The notes beneath the pieces are model-generated. The model did not search any database. It was not told the DNA's origin and saw only the letters and a program-made list of their open reading frames with translations. Shown here piece after piece: positions 1 through 42,811 of a stretch of DNA of 64,000 nt. The stretch lies in assembly GCA_019448385.1 (NCBI GenBank), contig JAGTXO010000031.1, positions 2,501-66,500 of the forward strand, in the 5' to 3' direction. A program made the translations under genes and the position numbers. This stretch comes from Diacronema lutheri (Eukaryota > Haptophyta > Pavlovophyceae > Pavlovales > Pavlovaceae). Within the stretch, counting starts at the first letter, position 1. Each line of letters opens with the position of its first letter.

Positions 1-146
<146 letters not shown>

Positions 147-21819: not shown

Positions 21820-22342
21820 CCACCCCTCGCCGGCCCCCGCCGGCCGCCGCCGCCGTCGCCGCGCCGGAAGCAGAGGCCGTCCACACCGCCGCAGGCGTCC
21901 ACATCCGCCTGGACGCCACTACCCTCATGTGAAACACGTATAGATGGTCAAGCCAAATCCGATCAGGGGCACGATCGCGCCCCGAGTGCAGCGCGGGCCG
22001 TTCGGAAGGACGTCCTTGTGAGGGAGCTCTTCGCGTTTGGCGAGCGGGGGAGCACGACGCGCAGCGTTGCTGCGGCGGCGTGCGGGCGGCGAGCAGCGGT
22101 CGGGCTGCTCGCGACGAGGCCGGAGCAGACGGCGCCGTGGCCGCCGGCGCAGGTGACGCGCGCCGACGAGCCGTAGCGAGCGTCCGTGATCCGCACGGCG
22201 GTTGGAGCGGGCCGGCTGGTGCGGCGCGCTCGGCCACGGGTGGCGGCGTGCACGGTCGTGCCGCGCGCGGCACGCGTCGCCAGCCGCGCGCGACCTGGGC
22301 AGAGCCCGCAAAGCGTCGACCGCTGCGCGGCTCGGCCGTGCG
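21820..22342. other. 3' flank of the Fanzor gene and end of the retroelement
   Basis: 21820-21935 is a shifted-frame remainder of the retroelement tail. The rest is immediately downstream of the giant gene's stop. It contains a palindromic-looking GGGGCACGATCGCGCCCC at 21964-21981 and other GC stems. Fanzor guide (omega) RNAs are known to derive from the region overlapping or following the nuclease 3' end, so this is where one would be expected, but nothing in the sequence proves a transcript. Confidence 0.35.
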
Positions 22343-25300
22343 TCAACGCCGGCCGCGCTTCGGCCCGCGCGCGCTGCCGCCGCCGGCACTGGCGCTGGCA
22401 GCTCCGCGGGCGGGGGTGCGGGCGCGAGAGCCGCCGCCGCCACCGCCGCCGCGCCCGCCGCCGTCGTCGCCACCGCCGTCGCCGCCGCCGCCTCCCCCGC
22501 CGTCATCGTCATCGTCGCCGCCGCCGCCTCCGTCGCCGTCGCCGTCGCCGTCGCCCTCGCCGCCGCCGCCGTCGCCGCTGCCATCGTCGTCGTCGTCGTC
22601 GTCGCCCTCGTCGTCGCCCTCGTCGTCGCCGTCGCACTCGTCGTCGCAGTCGTCGCCCTCGCCGTGCACCATGCGCTCCTCACGCTCCCACACCTCGCCG
22701 CGCGCCCACCAGGCGAGCACGAGGGCAAAGCGCTCAGGCGTCGACGTGGTGTCGCGCCCGGCCGCGTGCGCCGCCATGTCGTGCACGTCGTAGAAGATGT
22801 TGCGCGCGGCGTTGTAGTCGCGGTGCACGGGCTTCTTGCCGCCGTTGCACGCCGGGCAGATGACGAGCGCGTGCACCGTGCGCGTGCCGCCCTTTGCCAC
22901 GGGCAGGCGCGGGTTCTGCGCGAGCTCCGCGCCGCAGCGCTGCAGCCTGCCGCCCTTGGCGAGCCGCGGCATCGAGCAGTGCATCGACGTGTACGGCTCG
23001 GGCACGAAGACGGCCGCGACGCCGCGCCGCCGCAGCTCGCGCAGCAGCCCCACCTGGAAGGCGGGCGGCGCGCCCTTGGGCTGCGCGCCCTTGTGGTCGC
23101 GCAGCCACTTGCCCACGCACACGAGCAGCCGGTCGCGCGTCACGCCGTCGACACAGTGCGCCGCGATGAGCGCCTCGGCGACGCGCGCCGCGTTGGACCG
23201 CCCGCCGCTGTCGCGCCGCCAGCGCTCCTTCCGGCGCGCCGGCGCGTCGTACACGTGCTCGGCGGCGCGCTCGCGCACCCGCGCGCTCTCGCGGTGGAAG
23301 GCGATGTATTTGCCCGCGTCGAGCACCTTGGCGCTGTGCGCCTCGCCAAGCCGCGCCTCGTCCGCCTCCACGCTGAACTCCTCGCCGCGCCCGTCGGTGC
23401 GCACGCGCCGCCGCGCCGCGTTGGTCTTGGCCGTCTCGCGCGCAAAGCCCGCGGCGCGCGCGCGCGCGCGCTGCGTGAACTGCCGCCAGACGGCCGCCCG
23501 CCCGACGTGCGCAGAGTAGGTGGTGATGTTGCCCATGTTCGGGTCGGCCGCGACGACGACCGCCGCCTCGACGTCGATCGCCCGCCGCAGCTCGGAGCCG
23601 AGCGCGACGGCGATGCGCCCGTCCGGCCGGCGCCAGCGGTGCAGGACGCCCGAGCCGCCGGCCGGCGCCTGCGCCTTCGGCACGAGGACGGTCCCGACGG
23701 CGTGCACGGCGACGCCATCTGTCACCACCGACTTGACGGGCTGCCGGCCCGGGAGCGGCACGCGCGGCAGCGGCGCGAGGCCAACCCACGAGCGCCGCGC
23801 GTGCCACGGCAGATCGGCCGGCGGCCGCTCGCGCCCGGCGTAGTCGAAGACGCGGTTGGAGATGTCGAAGCGCGTCGCAAAGACCGCGTACCTGACGCGC
23901 ACGTCCGACATCGGCGGGGTGTTGCCGTTTGTGCCTGTCCACTTGATCGGCTCGCCATCGTGGTCGCGCAGGTCCAGCGCCTTGAGCCGCGCGCGCAGCT
24001 CCTTGCGCTCGTCATCCGAAAGCGTCACCCAGATGGCGCTCGCGGCGAGGCGCACGTTGCGCGGCACCTGCGCGCAGCGCGCGGCGCGCGAGCGCGCGGG
24101 CGCGTGACCAACCTGGCCGCGGGGCGGCGCGCACGGCGGCGGCGCGCGCGCGCTTGGGCGCTCGGCGGCGGCAGCGGCAGCCACGCCTCGCGCGCACCTT
24201 GTGCGTGCGCAGCGGCGCCACATTGTACCGCGGCGGCCGTCCGGTCAGCTGCGTGTGGATGTGCGCGAGCCGGCAGAGCAGCGCCTGCCCCTCGGCCACG
24301 TGCTGCAGGGTGCGGATCTGCACGAGGAAGTAGCGCGTCGTGTGCCGGTCGTAGTTCCACCTTTTCGTGGGCGTGCACTTGTAGTCGATCTTGTGGAGGA
24401 CCATGTCGGGCAGGTGGCGGTCGAGCGCGGCGGGGCAGCCGACGCGCGCGCCCTCCACGTCGCCGCGCAGCAGCCGCTCGCACAGCTCGCGCACGCGCGC
24501 GTTTCGCTGCATCTCGGGCAGCGCGACGAGCGCCTCGTCGCGCTCGACTGCCGCGCGGACGACGTCGCGGAGCAGCCCGTTCACGACGCGCGATGGATGC
24601 ATCAGGCACGCGGTGGACACCTGCGTCGCCTCCGCCTCGAGGATCTCCGTGAGGCCCACCGCGCAGACGGGCTGGACGCCCTCGGCCATCTCGCCGACGG
24701 CGCGCGCCGTCGCCGCCTTGGTCTGCGCGGCGGCTTGCTCGGCGGGCTTGCCTCGGGGCGCTGCACCGTACGTGCTCTCGTCCTTGTGCCAGCCGATGGC
24801 CGAGAAGATCGCACGGACGGTTCCCTTGTCCATCGTGGTCGACGTGTGCACGCTGGTCGACGGGCCGCCCGACGCCGCGCCGACGGCCTGCGCGCTCGCC
24901 ACCGCAGCCTCGTCGCGCACCACCTTGTTGATGACGCGGTACGCCTGTGTCGTGAGCCTGTGCACGGCCGCCGCGATGCGCCGCAGCTCCTTCCGCGCAC
25001 CGGGCTGCGCCGTCACCGCCTGCGGCCCCGCGTTGAGCGTCGAGCGCTTGACCACGAAGCCCGGGAGCACGCTGCCGCGCGTGCGCGCCGTCGCGCCGCC
25101 GGCGGCGCGCGCGCTCGGCGCAGCGGGCTCGTCCACGCGCGCGCGCTCGACGCCGCGCGCGCGGGGAACGCTCGGCGCGCGCGCGCCCGCGGCGTCGCGC
25201 GCGCTCGCGGCGGCACCCGCCGCGGCGCGCTTGCCCGCGGCGCCCGACTCGCCGTGCGCGCGAAGCGGCGCCGACGCCAATGCCGACGCCGCGCCCGCGC

Positions 25301-28300
25301 CGCCGCTGCCGCTGCCCGATACGCCCGCGCGCCGCTTCTGCTCGTCGCGCGTCTTGCGGAACTGGGCGACGAGGTCGCTGCTCACGTTGGCCTCAGGCTC
25401 CCACGTGTCGGCGCTCTCGTCGTAGCCCCGCCACCTGATCCGGAACTGGAACGTCACCTTCTTGCCCGCCTTGCGGCGCTCGTCGACGACCGCCTCGACC
25501 TCGTACGTGCGCGCCTCCTCGTCGACGCTCGCGCCCGCCGCGCTCGCGCCCGTGTCCGGCCACCCAGCGACCGTGCCGCCCAGCCTCTCGGCGGCCGCGC
25601 GCAGCTGCCGCTCGCGCTGGGCGGCCGCGGCGCCTCGCGCGACCAGCGCGGGCAGCATGCCCGCGCCGCCCGCGAGGCCGTGCGCGCCGACGCTGGCGGT
25701 CATCAGCGCGTCGAGGCACGCGAACGTTGCGAGCGCACGCGCGCCATCGTCGCCGCCGCGCGGCTGCGAGCGCACGACGGGCGATGGCCGCGGCTCCCCC
25801 TCGGCCGCGAGCAGCGGCCAGATCGCACTGGCCAGCGCGACGGCATGCGCGCCGACCGCGACGGCCACGTCCGCGTCGAGCGGCGCAAAGTCGTAGCGCA
25901 CGAGCGCGGCCGGGCGCGAGTCGTCCGTCGGCCGGTCGGCGACGAGCAGCCCGACCGGGCGCGGCGGCTCGCCGGACGGCGCGGCGACGGGCACGCAGAG
26001 GAGCACGACGAGCAGGCGCGGCGTGCCGCCGAGCAGCGCGCGCGCGGCATCCGCCCCGTCGGCTCCGCCGCGCGCGGCCGCGGCGAGCAGCTCGGCCGCG
26101 CGCGTCGGGCCCAGCGCCGTGCGCGCGTCCTTGCGCGCGCGTGCGCGGGCCGTGTACGCGGCGCAGGCGTCGTCGAGCACCGCCGCGCTGGGCGCGGTGC
26201 CAGTCGTCGCCCACGCGCGCAGCGCGTCGCGCACCCGCGTGACGATCGCCTGGTCGACCGCCGCCTCGCCGGCAGCGTGCGCCGGCGCGCACGCCGGCGG
26301 TGCGGCGGCAGGCGCGAGCGCGGGCGCGCCGTCGGCGCCGTCAACGCCGACGGCGCCGTCGGCGCGCCGCCACGCGAGCTTCGCCTCGATCTGCTGCCGG
26401 ACGGCGTGGCAGTGCCGGTCGATGCCGCGCGCGTCGTCGAGCGCGGCCAGCGCGTCCTCAGCGGCGGGACGGCCGCTCGCGTCCGCGACGGCCTGCAGGC
26501 AGAGCAGCGCGGCCGCACGCGCGTTGCACGCGCTCTGCGGCTCGGGCGCGAGCGCGAGCTCGAGCTCGAGCGGCGACGCGCCTCGCGCCGCGGCGATCGC
26601 GTCCATCAGCACGTCCAACCGCTGCACCAGCGCCCTGTGCGCGTCGCGCGGCGCGCCCGTCGACGGCGCGCGCGAGCGCGTCGCCACGAGCCCGAGCGCG
26701 CGCGCCGGCGCGCCCGCCGGCGTGTGCAGCACGAGCAGCGCCGCGCCCGCCAAGCTCGCGTTGCGCGTGACGAGCGCGAAGATGCGCGTCGCCTCGTGCG
26801 CGCCCACCGACGCCCAGATCGCAGCGCGATCGGCGTCCGTCTGCGCGTCGCACAGGTCGCGCACGTCGTCCGGCGCGAGCAGCGCGCCGCCGCCGGCGGA
26901 GCGCGCGACGATCGCCCGCGCCTCCGCCACGAAGACGGCCTGCGGCAGGTCGGCGTGGCGCGCGTCGACGATGGCGCGCGTCGCGTGCACGCCGAGCTCC
27001 ACGCCGCGGTAGAAGGCGCGCGCGTTGGCCGCGCGCGCGTGCGCCGGCCGTCCGTCCGCGTTGCGCCTCGCGCGCGCCTGCTTGCTCGTGCGCGCGAGGC
27101 CGTCGCGTGGCGGTGGCGGCAGCGTGGCGAGGAAGCGCGCGGCGGGCGGCGGCGCGCGCACGCCGCGCTGCCGCCGTGCGATGGCCGCGAGCCGCCGGCC
27201 CGCCGCGCTGCCGCCCGCGCCGACGTGCTGCCGGCGGCCGAGCGCCGCCGGTGGCGGCGGCGGCGGCGGCGCGGCGGCGGGCGGCGGCGCGACGGCGGGC
27301 GGCGGCGCGGCGGCGGGCGGCGGCGCGGCGGTGGGCGGCGGCGCGGCGGCGGGCGGCGGCGCGGCGGCGGGCGGCAGCGGCGGCGGCGCGGCGGCGACGG
27401 CAGCACCAGTCGGCTTGTCCGCCCACGCACCCGAGACTCTGTCCCAGACCTTGCCCCATGGCGCGCGCCCACGCGGCCGCGCGAACTGCCCCGGCTCGAG
27501 CGCCTGGCCGCGCTTGGCGGCGGCGGCGGCGGCAGGGGGCGGGCGGCCGGCGCGCCAGTCGAAGACAGGTGCAACCGTGGCGGCAGGCGCCGAGTGCCGC
27601 GCGTCGGTCACAGAGCGCGTGGTGCGCGCGGCGACCGTGGCACGCCTGGCGGGCGGGCGGTGAGCAGCGCCCGCCGGCGCGCCGGCGGGCGCGGCCGCCT
27701 CGAGCCCGGCGGAGGCGCCGCGCTTGCGCTTGCGCGTGCCGCCGCGCGTGCGCCTGCGCGCGCGCCCGCCGCGCGCCCGTTCGGCCTGCGCGTCGCCAGC
27801 CGCGTCGCCGGCCGCGTCGCCGCGCCGCACGTAGACGACCGCGAACGCCTCCTCGCCGGTCCCGTCGACGCCGCCGCGCGCGCGGCGCAGGACCGACCGC
27901 CACTGCAGCCGCCGCGCGCGGCCGGGCTCGCACGCAAACCAGCGCCCACCGCGCCTGACGACGGCCACAAAGTCGTCGTCGCGCCGCCCGCGCCGGCGCG
28001 TGCGCAGCAGCACGCACTGCACGTCGAGCCAGCCCTCGTGCCAGTCGGCCGTGCTGGGGGCGACGCGAATCGACTGCGGGAGCTCGACGCCAAAGCCGGC
28101 GAGCCGCACGATGTGCGCGACGATGACGCTCGAAATGGCGGGGGCGCTCGACGGGTCGCCCGCTGCAGCGAGCACCGCCCCGCCCCAGTGCTCACGCGTG
28201 ACGCAATCCGCGTCCTCGACGTGCACGTGCGCCACGCTCGCGCCGAGCTGGTGCAGCAACGCGCAGATGTCGGCGTCGACCGTCCTCTCCTCCTCGGCCG

Positions 28301-31300
28301 CCTCGGCCGTGCCGCGGGCGGCGGCGTCGCCTGCCGGCTGCCCGAGGTACGCGATCGCCCGCTCGACGGCCGCGCGCTCCGCACGCGCTGCGCTGTCGAT
28401 CGCCGCATTGCCGACGGGCGCGCGCAGCGCCGCGATCGCGTCTTGCAACGCCGTCGCGTCGCCCGTCGCCGCCGTCGCCGCCACCGCCGCCGCGCTCGCG
28501 GTGCCGTGCGCGACGGCGTGCAGCGCGGCGGCGCGCGCGGCGGGGATGCGCCCGTCCAGCGCGAGCACGAGCGGCGGCCCGGCCGGCGTCCGCTGCCGCC
28601 GGTGCCGCCGGCTCGCAGCCGGGTGGTCGGCGCGCGCGCGCTCGAGCCGCGCGCGCCGCTCGACGACGCGCGCCCAGAAGGCCTGCACCCTCGGCTGCGC
28701 GAATGCAAGCCAGCCGACGCCGCGCGTCACGACGTGCACGACGATCCGGTCCTCGTGCCTGAGGTACTGCACGTAGAGCGCTTTGCGCACGCCGAGGACG
28801 TGCATGCCGAGCTGCAGCTGATCGCGGTGCGGCTGCGGCGGCCCGTCCTCGTGCGCCTTGGCGTCCGCCTTGGTGAGCGTCTTCACCTCGACGAGGACCT
28901 GCTCGTTGTCTTCGGGGAGGATGGCGAGCCCGTCCGGCGAGAAGGCGAACGGCGCGCTCTTGTCGTGCGGGTCCGCACGCACCATCGGCAGGTTGCACAC
29001 GACGGTGATGCCGTACGCGGCCGCCAGCTTGCGCAGCGCGACGGCCTCGCCGAGGATGCCCGCGGTCGTCGCCTTGGTCCGCACCTCGCGCCGCCGCCGG
29101 TGCACGTACTCGTCGGTGAGCGTCTCGTGCGCGACGCCGGCGTTGTCGTTCACGACGTCGCCAACCTTGCTGCCCGTGACCTCCTCCCATCGCTCGTCGT
29201 GCCAGCGCGGGCTGCGCTGCGCGGGCGCGCCCGCGCCGACGGCGTCGAGCACGCGGCGCAGCGCTGTGCCGTCGGGCGCAGCAGGCACGCGCGCGCGGTC
29301 CTGGGCCTCGCGAGCGTCGAGGACGCAGCCCGTAGTGGAATCTTGGGGTAGGTCGAGCTTGCTCGCCTCGCCGTAGCGGCTCTCCAGCTGGCGCGGTGCG
29401 TCGGCAGGGCCGCCGTCCGTGCGCGCACCCGACGCGCCCGCCGGTGCACGGGGCGCAGCGTCCGAGGCGCCCGCCGCGCCCGCGCCGCCGCCAATCGCGC
29501 CAGCGCACGCGCGCGCCGCGACCTGCGGACGGCCAGCCGCAGGGACCTCGTCCGCTCGGCCGGCCGCTGCGTCGGCCGTCCGCTTGGCCACCTCGCGCAC
29601 GTCTCCGAGCGCGAGCGTGGCTGGCGCCGTCGAGCTCCCGTGGCGTTTGTTCCAAAACTCGAGCAGCCCGCCAAGGAAGGGCGTGCCCGTCGGGCGGTCC
29701 TCGGGCACCTCCGCCAGGATCGCGTCGACGCGCAGCGCGGCCGCCACATCGCAAAACGCGCGCGCGGCGCGCGCCATCCGCTCGGCGCGCGCGCCGCCGT
29801 CGTCCGCCGCGCGGCGGATGGCGTGGCTCACGTGCGCGACGCGGAGCGAGACGACGGCGTGCGCCGGCGCGTCGGCGCCCGTGCCGAGCGTGTGCCGCCG
29901 GATGGCCAGCTGCCCATCGCCCATGCGCGGCGGGAGCGACGCGCACGCCGCGACGGTCGTCGTGCCGGCCGCGCTGTCGCACAGCCAGCTCGCCTCGCCG
30001 CCGCCCGCAAACTCAAAGGTCGCGAAGCCCTCGCGGCCGAAAAGCGCGACGAAGTGGTCGAGCACCGCCTTGTTGATCGCGCGCGCCGCCGGCCGCGTCG
30101 ATGCGCCGCGGGCAGCGCCACCCGCCGCGCCGCGCGCATCGCTGCACGTCGCAGGGCAGGTGCAGCCGGACGCGCGCACGCCGTCCGACCGCGTCCGCGG
30201 CAGCTCGAGCTCGCGCACCTTGGGGCAGAACCAGAGCGGGTTGGACGCCTCGAGGCACAGCACGACGAGCCGCCCGTCCGTGCCGGCCAGCGCGCGCGCG
30301 TCGCGCAGCAGCTCGACGGCGAGCTCGGACGTCGCCGCGTGCACCGCCGGCTCGCCCGTCGCGCGGTCGGGCGGGAAGAGGCCGCCGCCGACGAGCGGGC
30401 TGGGGCAGCGGCCGAGCATCACGAGCAGCGGCGGCGGCGGCGTCTGCGGCGCCTGCTGCCCGACCGCAGCCGCCGTCAGCCCGGCCAGGTCGGAGCTCGT
30501 GCGGAGGGCCTTGAGCGCGACGCGCGAGCCGGTGCCCGCCTGCTCGGAAAACGTGGCGAGCATGGCGCACGTGCTCGCCCTCGCGCCGCACTGCCAGCTG
30601 ACGCGCGCGAGGAGGCCTTCCAGCGTGTCGTTTTCGCGCGGCCGCGTGACCGCGTCGAGCGCCGCCGGGCCGAGCTGGAGGCTGCCGGGCGTGACGCACA
30701 GCACCGCCTCGTGGTAGGCGCGCAGCAGCTCCCTCGGCAGCTGCTCGGCGGGCGTCGCCGCCTGCCCGCCCACCCACCGTGCACCGTGGCCGCCGTCGCC
30801 CGCGCCCGCGAGCCGCACCGCCGGCCCGCCCGTGATCGCCGAGGTCGGTGGCGTGCCGAGCGCGTCGACGAGCGCGCGCACGGGCGCGACACGCCTGCGC
30901 GCAGCGTCCGCGCCGACGGCGAGCGCGGCGATCTGAGCGCCCTCCCATGCGCGCTCCCTCGCGTCGTCCCGCGCGGCCGCCGGCGCGGCGCCCGGCCGCG
31001 CGCCGTGCGGCACCGCGCACGCCGCCGCGACGACCTCCGCGCGCGCGCCGGCGGCGTCGGGCGCGTGCAGCTGCGCGAGCGCGCCAAAGAGCGCGGCGGC
31101 CGAGCGGTAGCGGCCGTGCGCCGCGACGAGCGCGTAGAGCACGCGCAGCGCGGCCACGCCCGCCTGGTCGGGCGCGTCGTCAGCGATGCGCTCGACCTCC
31201 CACGTGCGCGTGGGCGGCGGGCTGCCGTCGGCCGGGTCCGGACGCAGCGCCCACGCGCGCTCGACGATCGCGTTGAACACGCCGTGCGCGGCGCCCTCGT

Positions 31301-32913
31301 CAAACTCGGCGGCGCCCGCCGCGTGCGCGCACCACCCGTGCACGCGCGACGTGGGCGCGTCCACGGCGCGCTGCACGACGAGCACCGCCGGCCGGTCGAC
31401 GCAGCCGAGGCTCACCGCCGCGTGCTTGCCCTCGAGCAGCGCCGCCGCCGCAGCCTCGACCAAGGCGTCACCAGGCGCGTCGCCGACGACGACGGCACAG
31501 CCGTCGCCGTACTCGGCCTGCATCGCGGCGACGCACGACGCGACAAAGTCGCCGCCCGCGGCCGCCGCGTGTCGCGCCGCCAGCATCCGGCGCGCGATGG
31601 CAAGCCAGACGTACTCGGCCGGCGCGCGCGCGGCGCGCGCGCGAGGCGCGCCGGCCGCGCCGCGTGCGCCCGCGCGTGCGCCTCCAGCGGCCGCAACGGC
31701 CGAGGCGGCTGGAGCGGCGGTGAGCGTGCGCCGCGCGCGCTTCGCCGGCCGCGTGATGGGCGATGCACCCGCCATCGCACCGCCCGCAGCAGCCGGTGCG
31801 GCCGCCACAGCGCCCGCCGCAACGCCACTCGTCACGACGCCCGTGGCGGGCGGCGCGGCGTCGGACGCGGCCGCGTCGACGGGCGTCGCGCAACTACCGC
31901 CAGCGGTCGCGGACGCGCCCGGCGACGCGTCGGCGAGGAGGTGGCGCAGCACGCCGCGCGCGAGCGCGACTCGCACGGCGAGCGTCAGCGCGCGCAGGCG
32001 GTCGGAAGGCGAGGCGTCGCGCTCGGCGTCGGCGGACGTGGCGGCAGCAGGCGGGGCGGCGGGCGGCGCGGCGGCGGACTGGGCGGCCGCCGGCGCAACC
32101 TCGTCGGCCTTGGCCAGCCAGACGAGCCCGGCGACTGCGAGCACGACGCTGTACGCGCCGACATCGTCACCCGCAACGCGCGCCAGCCGGGCGTGGGCGT
32201 CGGCCTCGGACACGGCGACGCGGAAGAGCACGTCGTCGCGGGCAGCTTGCTCGGCAAACTGACGCAGCTGCTTGGCCATCGTCACGCCGGCGACGCACGC
32301 CTCGCCCGCCTCTGCCTCGACCTGCTCGTCCTGGCCGATGGCGGACGCGCCGGCCTCGGCGCCAGCGTCGAGTGTCCGGCGGCGCTCGAGGGCAAAGCCA
32401 CGCACACAGACGCTCTGGAGGCCGCCGAGCGCGCCCGCCTTCTCGTGCAGCGCGCACGACAGCTCGACCACCGAGTCCACGCGCCTCGCGGCGGCGCCCC
32501 CCCGCTCGCCGCGCGTGGCCGCGCGCACGACGAACACCGTGAATTGCGCGCGCTTCGCCGCGCGCGCCGACGCGCACGCGTGCTTCAGGAGCCGGCAAAG
32601 CGCGGGCCTTTGCGCCGCTGCGCCCCGCGTGCACAGCAGCAGTTGGCCGCGCTCGTCGCCCAGCTCCTGCTCGACGGCGGCCTCGAGCGCGTCGTCCGTC
32701 AAATCGCCGTGCTCCGTCGAGGCGAGCGCGCGCGCAGCCGCGAGCGCCAGCTCGCCTGCGCCCGCGCGCCGCCGGCGGCGCGCATCGGCGGGCGCGTGCG
32801 GCGCCGACGCGTGTGACGACGCCGCCGCGTCCGCGCGCGCACACGCGGCGCGCAACGCCTCGCGCGCCGAGGCGGCCGCGCGCGCCCTGGGCGCGAGCTT
32901 CAAGAACGTGCGC

Positions 32914-32961
<48 letters not shown>

Positions 32962-35900
32962 TCGCCCTCGTCGCCGGCACGCGGCGGCGGTGGCGGCGGT
33001 GGCGGCGCGGCCACGGCGGCGGCAGCAGCGGCAGCGGCGGTGGTGGTGGCGGCGGCGGCGCCCAGCGCGGGCGGCGGAGGTGGCGGCGGCGGCGGAACGG
33101 CGGCAGCGGCGGCGGCGTCTGCGGCGGCCTTGGCGCCGCGCGTCTGCCGCGGCGCTTCGGCAGCGCGATCGCGGCTGCCCCCGCCGCGCACCGCGCCCGC
33201 CCCGGCGCAGGCGCCGCTCGGCGCACGCCCGCTGACCGCGCCAGTCAACGCGACGCGGAGGTGCTCGCCAACAGCGTACATGTCCGCCACGCTGAACGTG
33301 CGCGGCGCGGATGCACCGCCCGCCGCAGCGAGCGCGGCGTCGTTGAGCGCGCCCACCACGGCGAGGCCGCACGTCGCGCCACGCTGCGCCGCGTTGTCGA
33401 GCAGCCGCGCGCGGCGCACGGGCAAGACGTCGAGGCCCGCCGCGTGCAGCGTGGCGGTTATCGACCTGGCACGCTTGAGCGCCTGCCTGCTCGGCGACGC
33501 GAGCGTGTCGACAAGCACCGCGTCGTAGCGATGCTCGCCCGCGCGCGCGACGCGCACGAGGCGCAACGCGGTGAAATGGCCGGAGGCGGGCGGCGTGCCA
33601 TCGTCACTGCCCGCACCGCCGCGCCCGCCCGGCGGGCTCCACATGCCGATGACCGCCTGCGTCGTCGCCTCGCTGTGCAGGCGGTGCAGCAGCGCGGCGC
33701 GCTCGGCGCCGTCCTGGAACACCGCGGGCTGAGCGGCAAGCGGTACGTGGCAGACGCGCCCTTCGCCGGCCTGCCCGTGCACGCGCAGCACGACCTCGCA
33801 GCAAGCGTCCACAGTGGAGGCGAGCATGTCGCCGCCCGCAATGCAGTCCACCTCTGCCTGCGGGATGCCGGCGCGCGCGGCGGCATCGGCCAGCCGGAGC
33901 GCAGCCGCGTCGCCCGCCCACGCGAGCAGCGCCGGGGCGGCGGACTGGACGTCGCGCTGCGCCACGGCGGGCTCGGCCGCGGCGGGCTGGGCAGCGGCTG
34001 GCTCGGCAGCGGCGGGCTGGGCGGGGGCTGGCGCGGCGGCGGTGGGCTCGGCGGCCGACGATTGCGTGGCAGGCTGCGGCGCGGCCAAGGCGGCGGTCGG
34101 GCGGGCGGCGGAGGCGAAGGCGGCCCATGCGGCGGCCGAGCACACGGCGACGAGCCAAAAGGCGGTGGCTGCAGACGGGCGAGCGGCCGGAGCAATGGCG
34201 GCCCGGACGGCAGAGGCGGCGACGACACTCGCGAAGATGCCGACGGCGCACCGGACAGTGGCGACGGCGACGGCGGCACCGGCACACGGGCGGCGGTGGG
34301 GGCTGTCGGGCTCGGCGGCAGGCTCGGCGGCATGCTCGGCCGAGGGCCGATCGGTGCGCGACGGCGGGCTGCGACTCGCGCGGCGGAGCGGCTGCGGTGC
34401 GTGCTGGCCGCCCGTCGCGCACCTGCGCTTGCGCTCGCGGCGCGCGTCGCCGCCACGCAATCGGCGGCCGACAGCCCGCTCTGACCTGTCGATTGATCTC
34501 CGCAGCCGGTCGCGCGCGCGCTTTGCCGCCCGCCGTGCGCGCCGCGGCGGTGCGCGCGGGCACTGGTCGGGCGAGCTGCGCGCGGCAGGCTCGCAGCAGC
34601 CGCCGTCGCGTGCGTGCGCGCAGCCTCGGTCGCACGGCGCGCAAACGAGGTCGTCGGCGCCATCGACGCCGTCGAGGCCGTCGCCGCGCGCTGCGGCTGC
34701 GAGCGCGCGTGCCACGCCGTCGTCGCCGGCCGCCGGCGCCGCTGCGGCGGCCGCGGCGTCGGCTGCACGGCGCTCGGGCTGCGGCTCGAGCGGCGGGACG
34801 GCGCCGGCCGCCGCGGGCGGCGCCGTGTCGAGCGGAGCAGCCGCGGCGCGCGCGCGCGCGCGCGCACCCTTTGCGCCTACCGCGAGACGCCACCCGCGCG
34901 GGCGCCACGCGCGCCGCGGCTCGGCGGCCGCGCGACCGGCGGTGCCGGGCGTGGCGGCGAGCGCAGCGCTCGAACTTGCGTCTGGCTCGGTGGCGGCGAG
35001 CCGGCGCAGTTGCCGCGCAATGCAGGGCTGCACGTCGAGGTGCGCCTCGTCGAGTCGCGAGAGGAGCTCGCGCGCGCGAGTGCCGAGCGCGGCGCCGTCG
35101 CACTCGGCACGCGCGCCCGCCGGAGCCACCGAGCCTTCGGGGTCGCGCGGCGCGAGCAGCTCGCGCGCAGTCGCGAGCAGCTCCGCCTGCTCGGCGGTGG
35201 GGATGCAGGCGCGGCGCAGCGCGAGCTCTGTGTGCGCGGGCAGGTGGGCGCCCACGGCCTCGGCGTGCATGAGTAGCGCGCGCGCCTCCGCAGGTGCGTC
35301 CGCCTCGCCCATCTCGGACGCGGCGAGCACGCCCGCCGCCTCAGCGGCGAGCGCGAGCCGCGGCGACGCGAGGTCGCGCAGCGACCGCAGCAGGTGCGGA
35401 GGCAGCGCGTGGCCACGCGCCTTGACGCGCTCGAGCAGGGCGCGCGCGCGCGCTGCATCGTCCGCAGAGCCCAGCGCGCACTGCTCGATCAGGCGGCCGG
35501 CCGCGCGCTTGTCCTCGCGAAAAAGCTGCTCGCGGTGGAGCGCGCGGCGGGTCTCGCGCTTGGCGAGCGCGTCGGCACGCGCCCTGCAGCCCTCGTCGGC
35601 GGCGGCGGCGAGCTCGGCAACGCCGCCAGGCTCGGTGGCGGCGGCAAGCGTGGCGGCGACGGCGCCTACCTCAGCGGCAGCAATGCGGTCGTCAGCGCGC
35701 TTGGCGGCAGCGCATTTGACGGCGGGCTGGTCGGCTGGCTTGGCGTCAGGCACGGTGGGAGGCTGGGCCGTGGACTGGGCGGCGGGCTCGGCGGTGGGCT
35801 TGGCAGCGGCTGGCTTGGCGGCGGGCTCGGCGGCGGGCTGGGCGGCGGGCTGGGCGGCGGCGGGCTCGGTGGCGGGCACGTCCGCCTCGGCCAACAAGAG

Positions 35901-37787
35901 CGGCTCGAAGCGGTTGCTCGCGCGCATGCTGGCGCGCGGATGGCTCGGCGGCAGAGCAGCGGGCCGAACGCCAGCGCCCGCGCCGAGGCCTGGCCGCGCT
36001 GGCTGCCAGGGCTGCTCGCGCTGCTCGCGCTGCTCGCGCTGCACGCGCTGCACGCGCTGCTCGCGCTGCTCGCGCTGCTCGCGCTGCTCGCGCTGCTCGC
36101 GCTGCTCGCGCTGCTCGTGCTGCGGGCACCACGTGCGCTTGCGCCAGTTGTGCTGCGCATCCCCGCCCTCCGCTGCCGGCTCAAAATTTGCGCATGCCCA
36201 GATTTGGCCGCGCCCAACAATTGGCGTGCGCTGGTCCTGCGCGCGGCCGGCGGGCAAGAGGTCGGGCGGGCGGGAGGCGTAGGGGATGCGTGAGGGTGCT
36301 GCACGCTATACGCGCAAACTTTACCTGGCGCGAACGCAAGCGCCGGGCGCCACGCTGTGGACAGCGGACGGCGTGCGCGTGCGAGGCACTCACCGCCATT
36401 GGCAATGCGCGCGTCGCGGAGACAACTTGGCGGGCCTCGCACGCAGCTGGGCCGATCGCCGCCGCAGAGGTGTCTGCAGCCGTCTCCGCGATGCCGATCG
36501 TCGCATCTGTTGGCACCGCTGCCATCTGCCGCACCCGCGACCAGGCTGCCGACAGGGTCGGCGCGTCGGGCGCCGAGCTCGGCCACGCAGGCGATGCGGC
36601 CGACGGCGGTGACGCTGAGCCCAGCGCCGGGTCCAACGGTTCCGCGTCGAGCCGGCTGTAGAAGAGCATGCTCGCACCACTTGCCCACGCCAGCGCGTCG
36701 GACTGAGACAAGTTGTGCATCTGCGCGGGCAACGCGCGTGCGTGCGGCAGGCGCGCGGCGCGAGCTTTCAGGCCACGCGCGCGTGCCGCGCGGGAGGACG
36801 GGGCGGCTGCGGCTGCGATCAACCGCCGGTCGCGGCGCCAAGCGGCCGTGCGCGCCGCCGCACGTTGTCGTCGTCGCACAGAAACCAAGCCCCGTTGCGG
36901 AGCACGATGGCGACAAGGTGCCCGCTCGTCGACTCCTCGCCCAAGTGCACGACGGCGGCGACGAGGAGGTAGTCGCGCCCGCCGAGTAGCAGCCGCGGCG
37001 CGCACACGAACGCGTGCTTGTTCTTGCACTGCGAGCCATTGCCGCGCGTCGTGCGCGGCACCTCGACGGCAATGCTGGCTGGCATGAGCACGTCCGAGCG
37101 GCACGCGTCCGGGCTGCCACCCTGCGGCGGCCCAGCGACGCCCCCCAGAGCGTGTGCGAGCGTGCGCGCCGCATCGCCGCCAATGCTGACGAGGATGGCG
37201 ATGCCCTCACCGCGCTCGCTCGAGGCCACAGCGATCGGCTCGAGCACTACGCGTCTGTCGTCTTCGAAGGCAGCAGCGAGCCCGGGCACTCGGCCGAGTA
37301 GCATCTGGAAGAACTCAGCAGCGTCCTGCTGCGTCCCTCGCGTGCCACGGCCCAAGATGACGTCGACGACGGACACAAGACACAGCTGTGCCGGCGCCTC
37401 GGTGTCCTCGAGCAGCGTGCCAAAGTCCCGAAAAAGCGCCTTCTCGACTCTTCCCGCACGGCGCGAAGCGGAGCGGGGCATCGGACGGAGCACGTTCAAG
37501 GCGACGAGCGATTGCGCGAGGGCGTTCACGTAGCACGCGTTGCCCTCGTTTTTCACGCCTGCGCCGCGCCGCGCAGCGCCGGGTGTGCGGGGTGCGCACG
37601 CAAGGTTTACGGCGGGTCGGAGAGAGGCCGACTGGGAACGCGCCGAACCCGGCGAGCCGTGCAGGCGCTCACCACGCGGCACGTCGGGCACTCTCACCGG
37701 CCACATCGGGCCGATGAACGCGCCCCCCACAGGCTGCCGGCCGACGACTCGGAAGTTGCTCCAGGCGCTGCGCCGTGCACGCGTCAT
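22343..37787 (-). CDS. Giant fusion: USP deubiquitinase, Ulp1-like, YqaJ nuclease, chromodomain, Fanzor
   Basis: Proposed exons 37787-36864, 36720-36325, 36236-24198 (12 kb without a stop) and 24067-22343 encode about 5,027 residues. All three introns (143, 88 and 130 bp) are GT-AG and phase 0; the second has a strong donor CAG/GTAAAG and a pyrimidine-rich acceptor. Domain order: USP catalytic domain (about 80-345), EQR repeats, an Ulp1-like protease (about 1326-1400) plus several decayed relatives, a YqaJ-like nuclease (about 2780-2950), a chromodomain (about 4010-4060) and a Fanzor nuclease split by the last intron (about 4190-4890). It ends with an acidic Gly/Asp tail and a basic PKRGRR, which could be a nuclear signal. 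ATG 37787 (MTRARRSAWSNF) is the first ATG upstream of the USP domain; the 5' end is uncertain. It may be a mobile-element polyprotein. Confidence 0.6.
22740..25000 (-). other. Fanzor (TnpB-related, RuvC) nuclease module
   Basis: The N-terminal part in exon 3 (RKELRRIAAAVHRLTTQAYR to DYKCTPTKRWNYDRHTTRYF) joins in phase to VPRNVRLAASAIWVTLSDDE in exon 4. RuvC-like triad candidates are Asp in VVVAADPNMGNITTY (about 23545), Glu in AVFVPEPYTSMHC (about 23000) and Asp in VHRDYNAARNIFYDV (about 22820). Between the last two is a zinc-ribbon region with CPAC; the first knuckle shows only single, widely spaced Cys residues, so it may be degenerate. Fanzors are eukaryotic RNA-guided nucleases carried by transposons. 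The catalytic residues look intact. Confidence 0.75.
25370..25530 (-). other. Chromodomain module
   Basis: TYEVEAVVDERRKAGKKVTF, then QFRIRWRGYDESADTWEPEA and NVSSDLVAQFRKTRDEQ, form a canonical chromodomain: the aromatic cage residues (Tyr at the start, Trp in RWRGY, Trp in TWEPE) are all present. In chromoviral integrases such domains steer insertion to modified histones. In this fusion it may guide the C-terminal nuclease to chromatin, which is inference. Confidence 0.85.
28700..29215 (-). other. YqaJ-type PD-(D/E)XK nuclease module
   Basis: The segment opens with SPRWHDERWEEVTGSKVGDV and continues with GILGEAVALRKLAAAYGI, FAFSPDGLAILPEDN, VLVEVKTLTKAD and PHRDQLQLGMHVLGVRKAL, then a hydrophobic strand LYVQYL. 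This gives the family set of an upstream Glu, the SPDG Asp, the ExK pair and the QxQ motif, in correct order. YqaJ/lambda-exonuclease proteins act on double-stranded DNA ends in viral or mobile-element recombination. All core residues appear intact. Confidence 0.75.
33360..33610 (-). other. Ulp1/C48-like cysteine protease module
   Basis: The order of catalytic elements matches clan CE: His in SGHFTALRLVRV, Asp in YDAVLVDTLAS, Gln in DNAAQRG and Cys in ATCGLAVVGALNDAA, followed by a helix VADMYAVGEHL. Ulp1-type enzymes process SUMO or NEDD8-like modifiers and occur in some eukaryotic DNA transposons. The spacing from His to Cys (about 70 residues) is on the short side but within family range. 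Weaker relatives nearby on the same strand (about 31140-31400, 26460-26850, 25690-26030) look decayed. Confidence 0.55.
36005..36120 (-). repeat. 9-bp coding repeat (EQR)n
   Basis: About 13 copies of the unit CGCTGCTCG (plus strand) with two variants encode EQR or VQR on the minus strand, immediately after the HNWRKRTWCPQH segment of the giant protein. It probably forms a charged helix. Confidence 0.9.
36570..37560 (-). other. USP (C19) deubiquitinase module
   Basis: The Cys box is VKNEGNACYVNALAQSLVAL (about 37550-37495), with catalytic Cys in NACYVNA. GTRGTQQDAAEFFQMLLGRV (about 37345) is the QQDAxEF block. The His box is VHLGEESTSGHLVAIVLRNG (about 36965-36905), followed by WFLCDDDN. Splicing of the 143-bp intron then adds MHNLSQSDALAWASGASMLF and YSRLD, completing the classical USP ending in which Tyr/Phe residues follow an Ala-Tyr-x-Leu-Phe-Tyr-like block. 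Catalytic Cys, His and the following Asp all appear present. Family members cleave ubiquitin from substrates. The zinc-binding insert is short or absent. Confidence 0.8.
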
Positions 37788-39499
37788 GCGCGCGCTGTTG
37801 CGGGCTACGCAGCAGAAACGACGGGGGAATAGGCGAGCGAGGGTTGGGCGCAGATCAGCGTGGTGGCGCGGCAAGACGAGCGCGCGCCGGGCGCCTGGCG
37901 CGGAGGCGCCCCGCGCGAGGACGCGAGCCGCTTCTCGCACCGGACGGGCGCCCACGCGCAAACCGGCTTTAGAGGGCCAGATGGATGGTGGCCGATGACG
38001 AATCAGCGCGGCACCCGCCTTTGAAAAAGGGCGTCGCGGCACTGCCCGAAAGCGGTACGGACGAGCCGGGCGCCATGCATGGAACGATGCGACGGCGGCG
38101 TGAGCGCGGGACGATCTTGCCCAGGCAATTGTGCGCGTTCAGCGGGCGGCGCGCGCGTTGCGCGTGACGGGGCGCCGAGCGGCACACCGGCGGGGACCCG
38201 CTCGCCGCTGCCGTGGCATCCTCCGCTGCCGGCGTGCTGGCACGCACGCGCATTGCCGGCGCGAGGGGACGGCGAGTGCGCCTCGGCCGAACAGGCGCGA
38301 ACGTTACGCCCGAGCGCGTGGCCGAGCACCGGATGGAAGCATGCTTCGTCATGCGGCGGCGACCCGCGCCGATTGCACGCAGCGCCGGCCTAGGCGCGCA
38401 TCCGCCCGACGCGGATTTGGACGACGCGTCGACCGGCACGCCGAGCGTCTGCGTCTGCCTCGCGGCCGGTCGCGCCGGCCCCTCTTCGGCTCGCGGCCGC
38501 ACGTGCGCCGCGCGCCGCTTCGGCGCGCGGCGCGGCGCGCCTGGAACGCGCGGAACATACGCGCGGTGCGCGGGCACGCCCGCAACGCGCCATTTTAGCG
38601 CGAGCAGTTCGGCAAGCTTGCAGCTCGCGAGCAGCCGGGCATGTGCCGCGGACACACAGTTCGCTGTGTGCGCCGGCCGCGACGACACGGCGTAGCGGCG
38701 CGAGGCTGGCGGCCGGGGCCACGGGCGTAATCGTGGCGCGACGCCATGGCATGAGTAATAAATCCATGAGTAATAAATCACGGGCCCAAGCTCACGCGCT
38801 GTACGGCCTCTCCCGCATGGCGTGTCGGATCCGCCCCGCAGCCAGGACCGCATTTTCGCTCGGCCACGCAGCGGACCACGGCGCGTTGTGCGCGCCCGGC
38901 GCGAGTGGTGCGAGTGGCGGGCCAAGCCGCGTCGCCCACGGAGCCCGCCCCCGGCTCGGCGGCACCGCTACCGCTTGCTCGCCGGGCCGCGCACCGCCGT
39001 CGCCGCCGCTGCGCGCTTGCCCTGCTTGCCGGCAGGCGGCGGCGGCGGCGGCGGCTGAGGTTGCGGCAGCGGCGCGAGCGCGACGCCGGACGGCGGCAGC
39101 GCCGACGGCACGCGCGCGGCGGCGACCCACGCGGCGTCGGGCAGCGCGCCGGCTTGAGGCCCCTGCTTGCCGGCCGCATTGGCGCCGCCCTGCGCGCCCT
39201 AGAAGGGCGCGCAGGTACGCGGGCCAGTCGCGCGGCGCGCGGTGTTGGCGAGCACCCGCCGGCTGCGCGTCGGCCGCGAGCGGCGCGGCGGGCGTCGCGC
39301 CGGCGGGTGCTGGGCAGCACCGCGCGCCGGCGTCGCGCCCGCCGCCAGCGCGCCGCCCGCCGCCGGCGCCGCGCGCGCCGTCCGAGCCGCGCCCGCCGCG
39401 CCCGCCGCCACCGCGCGCCGCCGCCGCGCATTCGCGCGCGGCGGCGACGGCGGCCGCGGCGAACGCCGCCGCCGCCGCCGCCGCCTCGCCACCGCTGAC
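37788..39499. other. Region between giant gene and PIF1 pseudogene
   Basis: The frame of the helicase C-terminus stays open to a stop at 38792 but is Ala/Arg/Gly low complexity. A minus-strand ORF (37969-38925) has mixed composition (ALKWRVAGVPAHRAYVPRVP) but no domain. A 15-bp direct repeat, CATGAGTAATAAATC, occurs twice at 38750-38779, AT-rich against the background. Upstream exons of the giant gene could lie here. Confidence 0.35.
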
Positions 39500-41094
39500 C
39501 GCGCGGAGCACCTCTTTGAAGACGACGGTGCGCGTCACAGGGTCCGGGCCAAGCGCAAAGCGGATGCGCGACGCGTGCCCGACGCGCGAAGCGGCCACGT
39601 AGAGCTGGCCGTGCGTGAAGCACGGCTCGGCGAGCCACACGCCCGCGCACCCGAGCGCTTGACCCTGCGCCTTGTTACGCCGGCCGCACCGGGAACTGGC
39701 GGTGCAGCCATGCAAACGCGAACGTGCCCTCGTCGGGCGAGTGGTGGTCGATGCGCGCGATGAGCACGGTGCTGTCGCGCCCGGCGGCCGCGCCGGGTCG
39801 CGCGCACTCGAGCAGCCGGCCGCCGGCGCGCACGCCGCGCACGACCAGCCGCGTGCCGCTGCACAGCCCCTCGCCGAGCGAGAGGAGGCGAGTGGCTACG
39901 AGCTCCGCCGGGTAGGCCGAGACGCCTCGGGCAGCTGCACGGGATCGAGCGGGAATGCGCCGGGCATGGCCCCCGCAGGCGGCACCGCCGCGGGAAAGGC
40001 GCCGTCGCCGAGGCTGCGCGGCAGCTTCGCCCACTCGCCCGCGCCGAGCGCGTCGCCCGTGTCGCGCGCCGCGTTCGAGGCGCGAGAGTTCTCGACCAAG
40101 GCGTACGGCCGATCGTGCTGCCACGATGCCGAGTACTCGAGGCAGGAGCGCACGATCTGCGCGCGCGAGCCGCGCCGCACCACCGGCAAGCACTGGCAAA
40201 AGTCGCCGGCGAGCAGCAACGTCTTGCCGCCGAAGCGCTCGTCGACGCCCGTCACGTCGCGCAAACACCGATCGAGCGAGTCGAGGCGGCCCCGCTTCTG
40301 CATCGGCGCCTCGTCCCCCACGATCATTCGCCGCGGCGGCCACGGAGCGCCCGCGCTCGGAGCGCGGCACGCCATTGAACGGCTTGCCCGTCCGAGTCGG
40401 CGCCGACGGGCACCTTGAAGGTCGAGTGGAAGGTGCGGCCGTCGGGCAGCAGCGTGGCGGCGACGCCCGAGGACGCGCACACGACGACCGCGTGCCCATC
40501 CGCGCGCACGGCGGCGATGATGGCGCGCTCGACGAACGTCTTGCCCGTGCCGCCCGGCGCGTCGCAAAAGTGCAGCCGGTCGCCCACGCCGCGCAGCGCC
40601 GAGTCGACGACCGCGCCGTGGAGCGCGCGCTGCTGGCCGGTCTCGGCCATCGCCGCGCGCGCCGCCGCCGCGCTCGCAGCCTGCTCGGCGCGATCGTAGC
40701 CCTGCGCGCGCGCGAGCTCGCGCCCGCCCGGCCCGGCCGGCGCGCGCGCCGTGCGCAGACCGGCCACCGCCGCGAGCGCCGCCGCGCGCTCGCGCTCGTC
40801 GGGCACGTACAGCCCCGTGGAGTCGAACGTGTCGGCCCAGGCGGCCACGCTGTACGAGGCGAAGGCGTCCGAGCCGGGCTGCGGCCGCTGCTCGGCGCGC
40901 TTCGGGAGCATGACCCCGCACACGTTCCACTTGGTGCCAAACATCGAGCCCGTGAGCCCCGTGTAGACGCAGTCGAGCTGCGTGGCGATGGCGCAGACGT
41001 CCTCGTGCCGGATCTCGTCGACCGGTTCGCCATCCGTGGCGTCCAGGATGGCGACTGCGCCCGGGCCGTGACGCCGCGGCGTCGTTCGGCTGCG
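39500..41094 (-). pseudogene. Decayed PIF1-like (Helitron-type?) helicase
   Basis: Helicase motifs are present but in three different frames. Frame 1 (41094 to about 40325) holds Walker A in CDAPGGTGKTFVERAII and ASSGVAATLLPDGRTFHSTF, then hits a stop. Frame 2 (about 40330-39900) holds Walker B IVGDEAPMQKRGRLDSLDRC and LLLAGDFCQCLPVVRRGS. Frame 3 (about 39910-39680) holds SGTRLVV and FAWLHRQFPVRPA. The last frame holds NKAQGQALG and HGQLYVAASRVGHASRIRFA. The residues normally linking FPVRPA to the NKAQGQ block, and a larger block after GDFCQ, are missing. The 5' end is cut by a stop at 41095-41097; no HUH Rep domain is visible. Confidence 0.8.
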
Positions 41095-41213
41095 TCACGG
41101 AGGAGCGCCATCCGTGCGCCACGGAGGAGCGGCAGGACCACGACGCGGCGTGACGCTGGACGACGCCATGCTGTCGAGGCGCCATGCTGTCGAGCCGCCA
41201 TGCTCCGAGGCGC

Positions 41214-41528
41214 CGCCGCTTTCTAAAAGGGTGTAGGGTGTAGGGTGTAGGATGCAAAACAAGCCCTCCCCACATTTGGGCCCGACGTCATTCCTTCTTT
41301 CGTCACAGCGTCATTCCTTCTCCCCCCTATGGGACTTTCATAACCGTACGTATCCTACACCCTACACTATGCAAATACCTAGAGAATAGATACATCCTAC
41401 ACTAAGTAAAGGTACTCGTATGTGAGTAACGTCACGGCTTCGAAGAAGGAATGACGTCGGGCCCAAATGTGGGGAGGGCTTGTTTTGCATCCTACACCCT
41501 ACACCCTACACCCTTTTAGAAAGCGGCG
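41214..41528. mobile_element. Foldback/MITE-like element with 86-bp perfect inverted repeats
   Basis: Positions 41214-41299 and 41443-41528 are exact inverted copies (86 nt, no mismatch) around a 143-bp spacer. The arms contain tandem GGGTGTA units and the strings GGATGCAAAACAAGCC and GGGCCCGACGTCATTCC. The spacer repeats fragments of the arms (TCCTACACCCTACAC, GTCATTCCTTCT) and is far more AT-rich than its surroundings. No ORF of its own is supported: both ORFs reading outward just translate the arm. No clear target-site duplication could be found next to the arms. Confidence 0.85.
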
Positions 41529-41945
41529 CCGAAGGTGGGAGGATGCCACCCGTATGCGCGCGTTTGAACGTGCGCGGACGGCCGTTGGCTTCGCGCCCTT
41601 TCGCCCACGGTTTGCGCGCCAACGGACCAGTCCTCCGCGGGCGCCGCGCATCGTCTCAGGGGCGGTCGGTGTGGTACGCCGCGCGCATCGTCAGCGCCGC
41701 GGCGTCGAGCTCGGCGAGCGAGGGCGCGTACGTGACGCCGCTCAGCACCTCGTCCGCGCCCGCCCTCGTCGCGCTCGCCGCCTCCGCAGTGCGCGCAGGC
41801 GGCTTCGTGACGGCACGCGAGGCCACGCCGCGCGCCGCAGGTGCCTTCGCGCGCTGCATCGTCTGTCTGCCGGTCCGACGCGCTCTGCTCTGAACGAACG
41901 GACGGCACGCCCGACGAGATCTCGTCGCGTGCACGCTCGCACAGC
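41529..41945. other. Between inverted repeat and decayed ORF
   Basis: A minus-strand ORF ending at 41656 has protein-like composition near its end (DEVLSGVTYAPSLAELDAAA) but no known domain and no start context. Otherwise nothing is supported. Confidence 0.35.
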
Positions 41946-42778
41946 ATGTACCCCCAGAACGTCTCCGAGCTGCTGCCCGACGAGATCTTCGGCGACGAGC
42001 TGCTCGTCGACCGGCACTACCGCGTGCGCATCCTTCAGCGCGTCGCCCGCCGCCGCGATGCGGCCGAGGCCAACTTTTGGCTCGACGGCGGGCCCGCCGA
42101 CTCGGTCGTCGGCGCGTGCATGTGCGGCCGAATCTACGCGCTCAAGTGCATGGGCCGGCTCGTCCGCGGCGCCCGGATCCTCGCGCTGCTGCGCAAAAAT
42201 GTGGCGCTCGCCACGTGCCGCGCACACCTCATGGGCCACATGCTCCAGCGCATCGTCGGCGACAGCGGCGTCGCGCGGCTGCTGCAGCTGGTTGCAGCTC
42301 GTTCGCGAGGATCACGACACGCTCAACGCCGAGCACCAGGCCTTGGAAGCACAGCATGACACCGGCCAAGTCATGCGACGGCATGTGCGCGCGCGCCGAC
42401 GCGCTCTCCAAGGACCTCGCACGGGCGCACGAGCACGCTCACAAGCTCGATGGCTATCTGGTGTGGTGCAGCGAGCGCCTCGGTGAGAGTGACTCTTTCA
42501 ACGGAGCGCTCGAGAACCTGAACACGCGGTGCAGCATGAGATGTGCTGGCTCCACGCCGAGATGTCGTCGCTCGTTGCGAGTTCGCCCGAGGCTTACGCG
42601 AACGACAGCGAGGCCACCGACTTCAAGGACCACGGCGTGTGCGTCGAGTTCGATGTCTTCAACCGCGACGGGGTCGAGGGCGCGCCCGTGCCCGCGACCG
42701 CGCCCACGAAGGCAGAGCCGGGCATCGAGTCCGAGTGCATCGCGCCCGCACAGGCAGAGCCGGGCAGCGAGTCCGAAG

Positions 42779-42811
<33 letters not shown>

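Follow-up and report, generated by a model that had tools for sequence, protein, structure and literature searches.

Giant eukaryotic transposons such as Teratorn and Starship are tens of kilobases long and carry accessory cargo together with a known transposase or recombinase. Exonucleases of the RecE family are usually small phage proteins encoded beside an annealing protein. Fanzor1 nucleases occur in the Chlamydomonas elements CRe-1, CRe-2, and CRe-3, which belong to the Helitron2 group, and related Helitrons insert after TTTT without duplicating the target, according to the accessible portion of Bao and Jurka (PMC3627910). A role for Fanzor in the spread of eukaryotic transposons is only proposed in the accessible text of a second report (PMC10432273). 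The locus under study lies in a 64,000-nucleotide stretch of the haptophyte alga Diacronema lutheri (contig JAGTXO010000031.1, positions 2,501 to 66,500, forward strand), hereafter the window. It is a repeated mobile element whose main gene and cargo is a giant gene near the element's right end, with a Fanzor1-like nuclease in its last part.

The window holds one whole copy of the element, bounded as follows (positions are those of the window).

21938..43522, minus strand: whole element copy of 21,585 bp, 21.6-kb class, with its first base at 43522 and its last base at 21938
43523..43531, minus strand: left flank of this copy, CTCAATA..., an exception to the motif [CG]TATATA[CG]

The host genome comprises 43,492,796 bases on 103 contigs, one of them 3,042,068 bases long. 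The published D. lutheri genome is given as 43,502,671 bp in 103 contigs, with a longest contig of 3.042 Mb and 73.25% GC (PMC8379373, accessible portion). A 4-kb probe from the gene recovers at least 37 full-length copies that are 99-100% identical, with 37 of 1,193 candidates scored. The same right end, ...CTATAC, is found in 22 of 22 copies, two of which lie at a contig end with 0 or 1 base of flank. Contigs C1, C12, C14, C32, and C49 have a boundary that lies at most a few bases from one end of the element. The left end at 43522 comes from comparison of copies, in which 16 of 1,498 and 40 of 287 candidates were scored. Searched genome-wide as patterns that allow at most 2 mismatches, the left end has 200 places and the right end 218; control patterns give 0. 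Pairing used the first 100 listed ends of each kind. Sixty-four of these left ends pair with a listed right end, at a mean length of 28.0 kb; 31 pairs measure 30.0-31.7 kb, 13 measure 21.3-21.7 kb, 8 measure 28.5-29.9 kb, 7 measure 26.0-26.8 kb, and 5 have other sizes. By extrapolation from the paired ends, the family would occupy ~3.6-5.6 Mb, roughly 8-13% of the genome. There is room for it among the repeats, because long terminal repeat and long interspersed nuclear elements make up only 36.5% of the masked bases in a genome with 22.9% repeats (PMC8379373, accessible portion). The repeat is also longer than the published read N50, so the assembly was probably broken at the element.

Insertion follows a target rule. 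The left flank is [CG]TATATA[CG] in 14 of the 15 copies read, the sole exception being the window copy; two of these 15 flanks (C39, C45) are identical over 140 bp. Genome-wide, 164 exact left junctions carry the motif; among the first 100 left ends listed, 80 do. The right flanks share no common motif and slightly favor G as their first base (11/25). Across ~190 kb of fetched right flank, [CG]TATATA[CG] occurs twice, each time directly before another left end. No target duplication is therefore seen, since the right flanks lack the motif and both occurrences belong to further left ends. The shorter sequence TATA[CG] recurs in three places: the left junction, the right end of the element, and the target. 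The number of copies, their fixed ends, and this rule support the initial annotation in its suggestion of an element protein; that the gene is cargo of a mobile element had gone unnoticed there. No empty site was seen, and the flank repeats examined belong to another repeat family. This family, with ends GTTAGTATA, lies beside insertion sites in the flanks of the C4 copy, at L010 7400-7526, and at L018 9314-9483.

The gene is predicted to consist of four exons, with the following parts.

36864..37787, minus strand: exon 1, USP with Cys and His boxes (profile, structure-database match by sequence, phase)
36394..36720, minus strand: exon 2, USP C-terminal strand ASMLFYSRLD, ending at GTGAGT (alternative end 36325 at GTAAAG)
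24198..36236, minus strand: exon 3, giant open frame of 12,039 nt
24068..24197, minus strand: intron between exons 3 and 4, GTGCGC...GCGCAG, 130 nt here and 128 nt in 5 of 8 copies
22343..24067, minus strand: exon 4, Fanzor part, then acidic/glycine tail
33081..33983, minus strand: GHF/VDTL/ATCGL stretch, putatively Ulp1-like (boxes only)
28653..29228, minus strand: RecE/YqaJ-type exonuclease domain (phrog_434, TIGR03033, PF09588)
25353..25505, minus strand: chromodomain (PF00385, 6e-12)
22343..25070, minus strand: Fanzor1-like nuclease, then acidic/glycine tail (end of exon 3 and exon 4)
22796..23035, minus strand: Cas12f1-like TNB / C4 zinc and RuvC-III (TSMHC...CPAC...HRDY; PF07282, 2e-6)

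As initially annotated, the four minus-strand exons, each made of whole codons, join in phase 0 into one frame with a single terminal stop. This frame has 5,004 residues with the GTGAGT donor of exon 2 or 5,027 with the GTAAAG donor. Exon 3, already described as stop-free, has 0 stops in 4,013 codons; the other five frames across the same span have 5 to 37. The longest open reading frame (ORF) here is 4,097 codons; when the element was resampled 200 times with a second-order Markov model, no frame on either strand exceeded 1,838. Third-position GC is ~0.86-0.96 across the giant frame, and the Fanzor exon reaches 0.96.

Eight copies were compared over the 3' part of the gene. The last 3.6 kb of exon 3 is stop-free in all of them, and the frame is kept through the Fanzor core too. 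Four of the eight differ from the window in this part by +24, -33 (aligned as 29 + 4), and -18 nt, all net multiples of 3. An indel of -2 nt, found in five of the eight, falls inside the predicted intron between exons 3 and 4, and exon 4 is intact in seven. From these indels, the predicted join of exons 3 and 4 is well supported. The annotated D. lutheri model P0011 spans the exon 3/exon 4 junction and matches at 93% in its first 106 residues. Three co-linear stretches of exons 3 and 4, all lying between residues 1790 and 4033 of their product, are matched in one gene by a second annotated model, P0012. This diverged paralogue, at 36.5% over 389 aligned residues, unites the middle part with the N-part of Fanzor in a single model. 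No relative of the whole giant frame was found among 1,675 candidates scored; its middle matched one D. lutheri protein (8,000 candidates scored). P0011 is KFE25_006464, a SAM-domain protein that opens with a 106-residue fragment of the element's Fanzor N-part. Judged by this opening, element sequence may possibly have been captured by a host gene model.

The initial annotation proposed one fused gene of five modules. The RecE-like exonuclease, the chromodomain, and the Fanzor part are co-linear within one exon set, and the eight copies, P0011, and P0012 speak for this portion of the fusion. USP is matched by Pfam PF00443 (UCH/USP) at 7.3e-15, has its Cys box and His box in place and its conserved last strand in exon 2, and resembles USP46/USP12 structures by sequence; its join to the rest is treated below. 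The domain first called a YqaJ nuclease is recovered as a RecE-like exonuclease over ~190 residues (residues 2360-2551 of the giant frame) by the PHROGs profile phrog_434 at 9.1e-16, and it carries the SPDG and E-x-K boxes. YqaJ PF09588 scores 0.015, below the Pfam cut-off, and TIGR03033 scores 6.9e-6, below its own cut-off; the YqaJ call is upheld despite this because of the phrog_434 match. The chromodomain, likewise recovered, resembles CDYL and HP1 chromodomain structures by sequence. The deubiquitinase and SUMO-protease half of the fusion is the weaker one, and the SUMO-protease module is not confirmed. Its GHF, VDTL, and ATCGL boxes are present at 33581, 33512, and 33380, and the stretch matches nothing in Pfam, NCBIfam, or PHROGs. 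The order H-D-C by itself is weak evidence for a Ulp1 protease.

The last module was called a Fanzor, and the call holds. PF07282 (Cas12f1-like TNB) matches above its cut-off. The Fanzor1 motif D-x(125,275)-[TS][TS]-x-x-C4 zinc finger-x(5,50)-RD (Bao and Jurka, PMC3627910, accessible portion) is present as D-x184-TSMHC, with cysteines at 654, 668, 694, and 697 of the piece analyzed, and HRDY. Fanzor proteins also have a displaced RuvC-II glutamate (Ealt) six residues before the zinc finger and a TDG motif in the wedge domain (PMC10711439, accessible portion). The glutamate (E-x6-C) is found in EPYTSMHC of the window and in EPYTTKHC of the relative P0010, which lies on a 2.8-kb contig and matches the window Fanzor at 43%. 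The TDG motif is found in SVVTDGVAVH.

Of the element's size classes (21.6, 26, 29, and 31 kb), two types, of 21.6 kb and 31 kb, were compared. The 31-kb class was read inside in one copy (C9), all but ~6 kb.

34045..36361, minus strand: stretch specific to the 21.6-kb type, covering the intron before exon 3 and ~730 residues of the front of exon 3

The C9 copy matches window positions 43525-41153 at 99.9% and the region from PIF1 to USP at 90-96%. After 36361, ~10 kb is unlike the window, and the giant frame then resumes at ~33934 (comparison of the first 18 kb of that copy). The last 5.9 kb of C9 is 99.7% identical over aligned bases. In C9, too, a giant frame reaches the join, and its front part differs. 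Of 20 copies scored among 1,547 candidates, 8 match along the whole stretch and 12, at 97%, only on the 3' side of 34045. The GTGAGT donor of exon 2 is kept in both types, which part ~33 nt after it, at ~36361. By the position of this breakpoint, it looks as if the types exchanged sequence inside an intron after exon 2. The C9 copy also contains another open frame (L049 1764-5798; 1,345 residues), which lacks a Pfam match and by eye shows an H...D...C order reminiscent of the Ulp1-like stretch.

The reading that fits best, and that is held at about an even chance, is a Fanzor1-bearing, site-specific element that copies itself via RNA-guided cutting of empty sites and recombination. Built on the fixed ends, the repetition, the target rule, and the protein domains, it adds a guide step involving one further feature.

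21938..22342, minus strand: non-coding right end of 405 nt, candidate source of a guide RNA scaffold (by position only)

This right end sits where a Fanzor guide scaffold would, and by analogy RNA-guided cleavage may be inferred. For movement, the DNA would be nicked after TATA[CG], in the manner of single-strand (HUH-type) transposition. The nicking enzyme would be supplied in trans or lie unrecognized in the element, because the copies have no known transposase and carry a broken PIF1 helicase. As its guide, Fanzor would use an RNA that runs from the right end on into the flank, and its target-adjacent motif would be TATATA[CG]. Fanzor would then cut sites without the element, and the exonuclease domain would resect or prepare the ends, so that the break could be repaired from the element-bearing copy. 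The chromodomain may keep the protein on chromatin. USP and the possible Ulp1-like part may shield the protein, help it mature, or target modifiers of the host. The initial annotation's proposal that chromatin sensing, DNA cutting, and tag removal form one coordinated act stays at the level of inference.

A bolder version has the element as a new kind of transposon, 21-31 kb long, homing in an RNA-guided manner without a classical transposase, in which a single polypeptide of 4,500-5,000 residues would be the whole spreading machine. In this single-polypeptide version, Fanzor would cut empty TATATA[CG] sites, the RecE-like domain would resect and pair the ends, the chromodomain would pick the chromatin, and the proteases would trim. 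It is decidedly unlikely in this full form.

Several observations weigh against the RNA-guided reading. The gene model is predicted from sequence alone. Profile scans of part of the ORFs found no known transposase. Genome-wide, Helitron_like_N (PF14214) occurs at 1 place and Phage_integrase (PF00589) at 16, so neither is the gene of ~200 copies. The PIF1-like helicase is frameshifted in the window copy and split over two frames in the 31-kb copy too, and its ratio of non-synonymous to synonymous differences (pN/pS) between types is 1.35-1.48, without purifying selection. USP likewise shows no purifying selection between types, as its pN/pS is ~1.2 in exon 1 and 1.9 in exon 2 (17 differences). 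The giant exon has 18 differences between types, 16 of them non-synonymous, which is too few for judging selection. The copy on C12, one of the eight compared, has a 1-nt deletion at 22498, in the glycine tail of exon 4 and past the nuclease core. In the Fanzor part, RuvC-I reads DPN and not the near-universal DPG, which P0010 carries. A sequence comparison of this part with solved structures gave no Fanzor; the closest relevant entry was a Cas12f1 at an E of 0.42. The fold of the right-end RNA (~405 nt) has a z of -0.90, with 15 of 100 shuffles as good. Structure prediction of the modules, proposed in the initial annotation, gave no usable fold: AlphaFold2 reached a predicted local distance difference test (pLDDT) of 44 on the Ulp1-like piece and 39 on exon 4 with two relatives.

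Two candidate classes were tried for the missing transposase. A canonical Helitron was rejected: PF14214 lies at one place in the genome, on C63, the helicase remnant has no Rep, and inverted terminal repeats are lacking, the best end-to-end match being 6 bp, with 716 of 1000 shuffles as good. A canonical Crypton was rejected because PF00589 has too few places, none of them in the ORFs scanned. Three HUH-like H-x-H motifs occur in the giant protein, none of them convincing. The sole Helitron_like_N match (G000:C63:35738-36019, 8e-23) might provide a Rep enzyme in trans.

The strongest rival to the RNA-guided, single-gene reading is that of separate genes, which is quite credible, if somewhat short of an even chance. 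USP would form a gene by itself, the giant exon would open another (for instance, at the ATG of MRASNRF, 35927), and only the RecE-like domain, the chromodomain, and Fanzor would form one protein. The C9 copy fits this arrangement, because it keeps the USP region at ~90%, after which ~10 kb of unrelated sequence intervenes until the giant exon common to both types resumes; its type accounts for 31 of the 64 paired elements. The USP ratio of ~1.2 given above points the same way, as no constraint is seen. With the frame shifted, exon 1 gives a pN/pS of 0.7-1.0 and exon 2 one of 0.3-1.0, and the test therefore does not favor the USP frame. Against separate genes stand the retained GTGAGT donor in the 31-kb copy, with divergence beginning ~33 nt later, and the phase 0 of all four exons. 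The between-type indels in USP exon 1 are +6 and -3. Three single-base indels fall outside the predicted exons if exon 2 ends at 36394; one falls inside if it ends at 36325. That the USP exons are spliced onto exon 3 is thus plausible but unproven, with phase, donor, and indels as its only basis.

The giant frame may instead be passive cargo, which is rather unlikely. The element would then be non-autonomous and spread by another element, and the giant protein would have no current role. The split helicase in both copies read agrees with this, as does the absence of a recognized transposase, and the copies are too alike for measuring current selection. Against cargo without a role stand ~4,000 codons that remain open and between-type indels in exon 3 that are in frame. 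In the diverged paralogue P0012, moreover, the order of the middle part and the N-part of Fanzor is preserved.

Two weaker rivals are both very unlikely. Integration by a Crypton-like tyrosine recombinase, with crossover at a short TATAC core common to the right end and the target, is compatible with the junctions STATATAS|GGCG and CTATAC|, which fit recombination at a shared TATA[CG] core, but the ORFs scanned have no Phage_integrase match and none of the 16 genomic places lies within 32 kb inside any of 23 left ends checked on the same contigs, among the ends listed. A replicating virus or plasmid-like ancestor turned transposon, with the exonuclease, PIF1, USP, and Ulp1-like parts as remnants, draws on the match of the RecE-like module to a phage protein family and on the occurrence of PIF1-like helicases in large DNA viruses, but no polymerase, capsid, or packaging family is found in the ORFs scanned (with the C9 copy covered all but ~6 kb), and the Fanzor part has no match in IMG/VR contigs or phage records.

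The remaining features of the element lie mostly toward its left end.

43466..43483, minus strand: perfect palindrome of 18 bp near the left end, ~40 nt inside (3 of 2000 shuffles with an arm as long)
41811..42356, plus strand: open frame on the opposite strand, from the ORF list, in the left 2.4 kb common to both types
39506..40635, minus strand: PIF1-like helicase remnant (PF05970, 2.7e-23 and 6.5e-19, in two different frames)
21966..21983, minus strand: imperfect hairpin 28 nt before the right end, with 8-bp arms and one mismatch

The best perfect arm elsewhere at the right end is 6 bp, matched by 479 of 2000 shuffles, and DNA folds of the element ends have z values of -1.98 to 0.07. Frames 41455-42486 and 41894-43414, which overlap the opposite-strand frame, have no Pfam match (frame 41811..42356 itself lay outside that scan). 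An inverted repeat of 89 nt, 99% complementary, pairs 41211-41299 with 41443-41531 among TGTAGGG-like repeats inside the element and is partly duplicated again in the C9 31-kb copy. At L015 2118-3921, a relic of the giant exon is found with ~94-96% identity, frame-breaking indels, and no third-position bias; to judge from these changes, it is probably an older, decayed copy. Outside the element, window positions 1-147 are a perfect (CCTCAC)24.5 array.

No report of such an element was found in the accessible full-text literature on Fanzor with Helitrons, haptophytes, the fused domain types, or transposable elements of Pavlova lutheri. The accessible main text of the D. lutheri genome paper contains no word starting with 'transpos' or 'Helitron' (PMC8379373). 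The alga is used in aquaculture and brings together ~200 element copies, a possible target-adjacent motif, and a Fanzor beside a recombination exonuclease, and this combination makes the cut-and-copy idea directly testable.

Among known systems, CRe-1, CRe-2, and CRe-3 offer the closest likeness. Both they and the D. lutheri element place Fanzor1 in an algal host, in a family whose members leave the target unduplicated and insert behind a fixed motif rich in T, and both have interior-deleted copies. The target differs: it is [CG]TATATA[CG] here and TTTT there, and many CRe copies, especially those truncated at the 5' end, do carry duplications (PMC3627910, accessible portion). The element here is 21-31 kb long, and its Fanzor is the tail of a giant protein. 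Of the Helitron2 traits, fixed-motif insertion without target duplication is present, and the Rep-helicase fusion (RepHel) and asymmetric terminal inverted repeats were not found. The size of tens of kilobases and the accessory cargo recall Teratorn and Starship, unlike which no transposase or recombinase is recognized.

The nuclease itself resembles TnpB of IS200/IS605 and IS607 elements and Fanzor in its RuvC-zinc-RuvC order, in the glutamate six residues before the zinc finger, and in adjoining the right end (PMC10432273, PMC10711439, accessible portions). It differs from them in its RuvC-I sequence and in its fusion partners, which include at least a RecE-like exonuclease and a chromodomain, and the accessible portions of these two reports mention no giant fusion. 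The exonuclease shares its profile match and its two boxes with the RecE, YqaJ, and lambda-exonuclease group. Unlike members of the RecE family, it is an internal domain of a very large protein.

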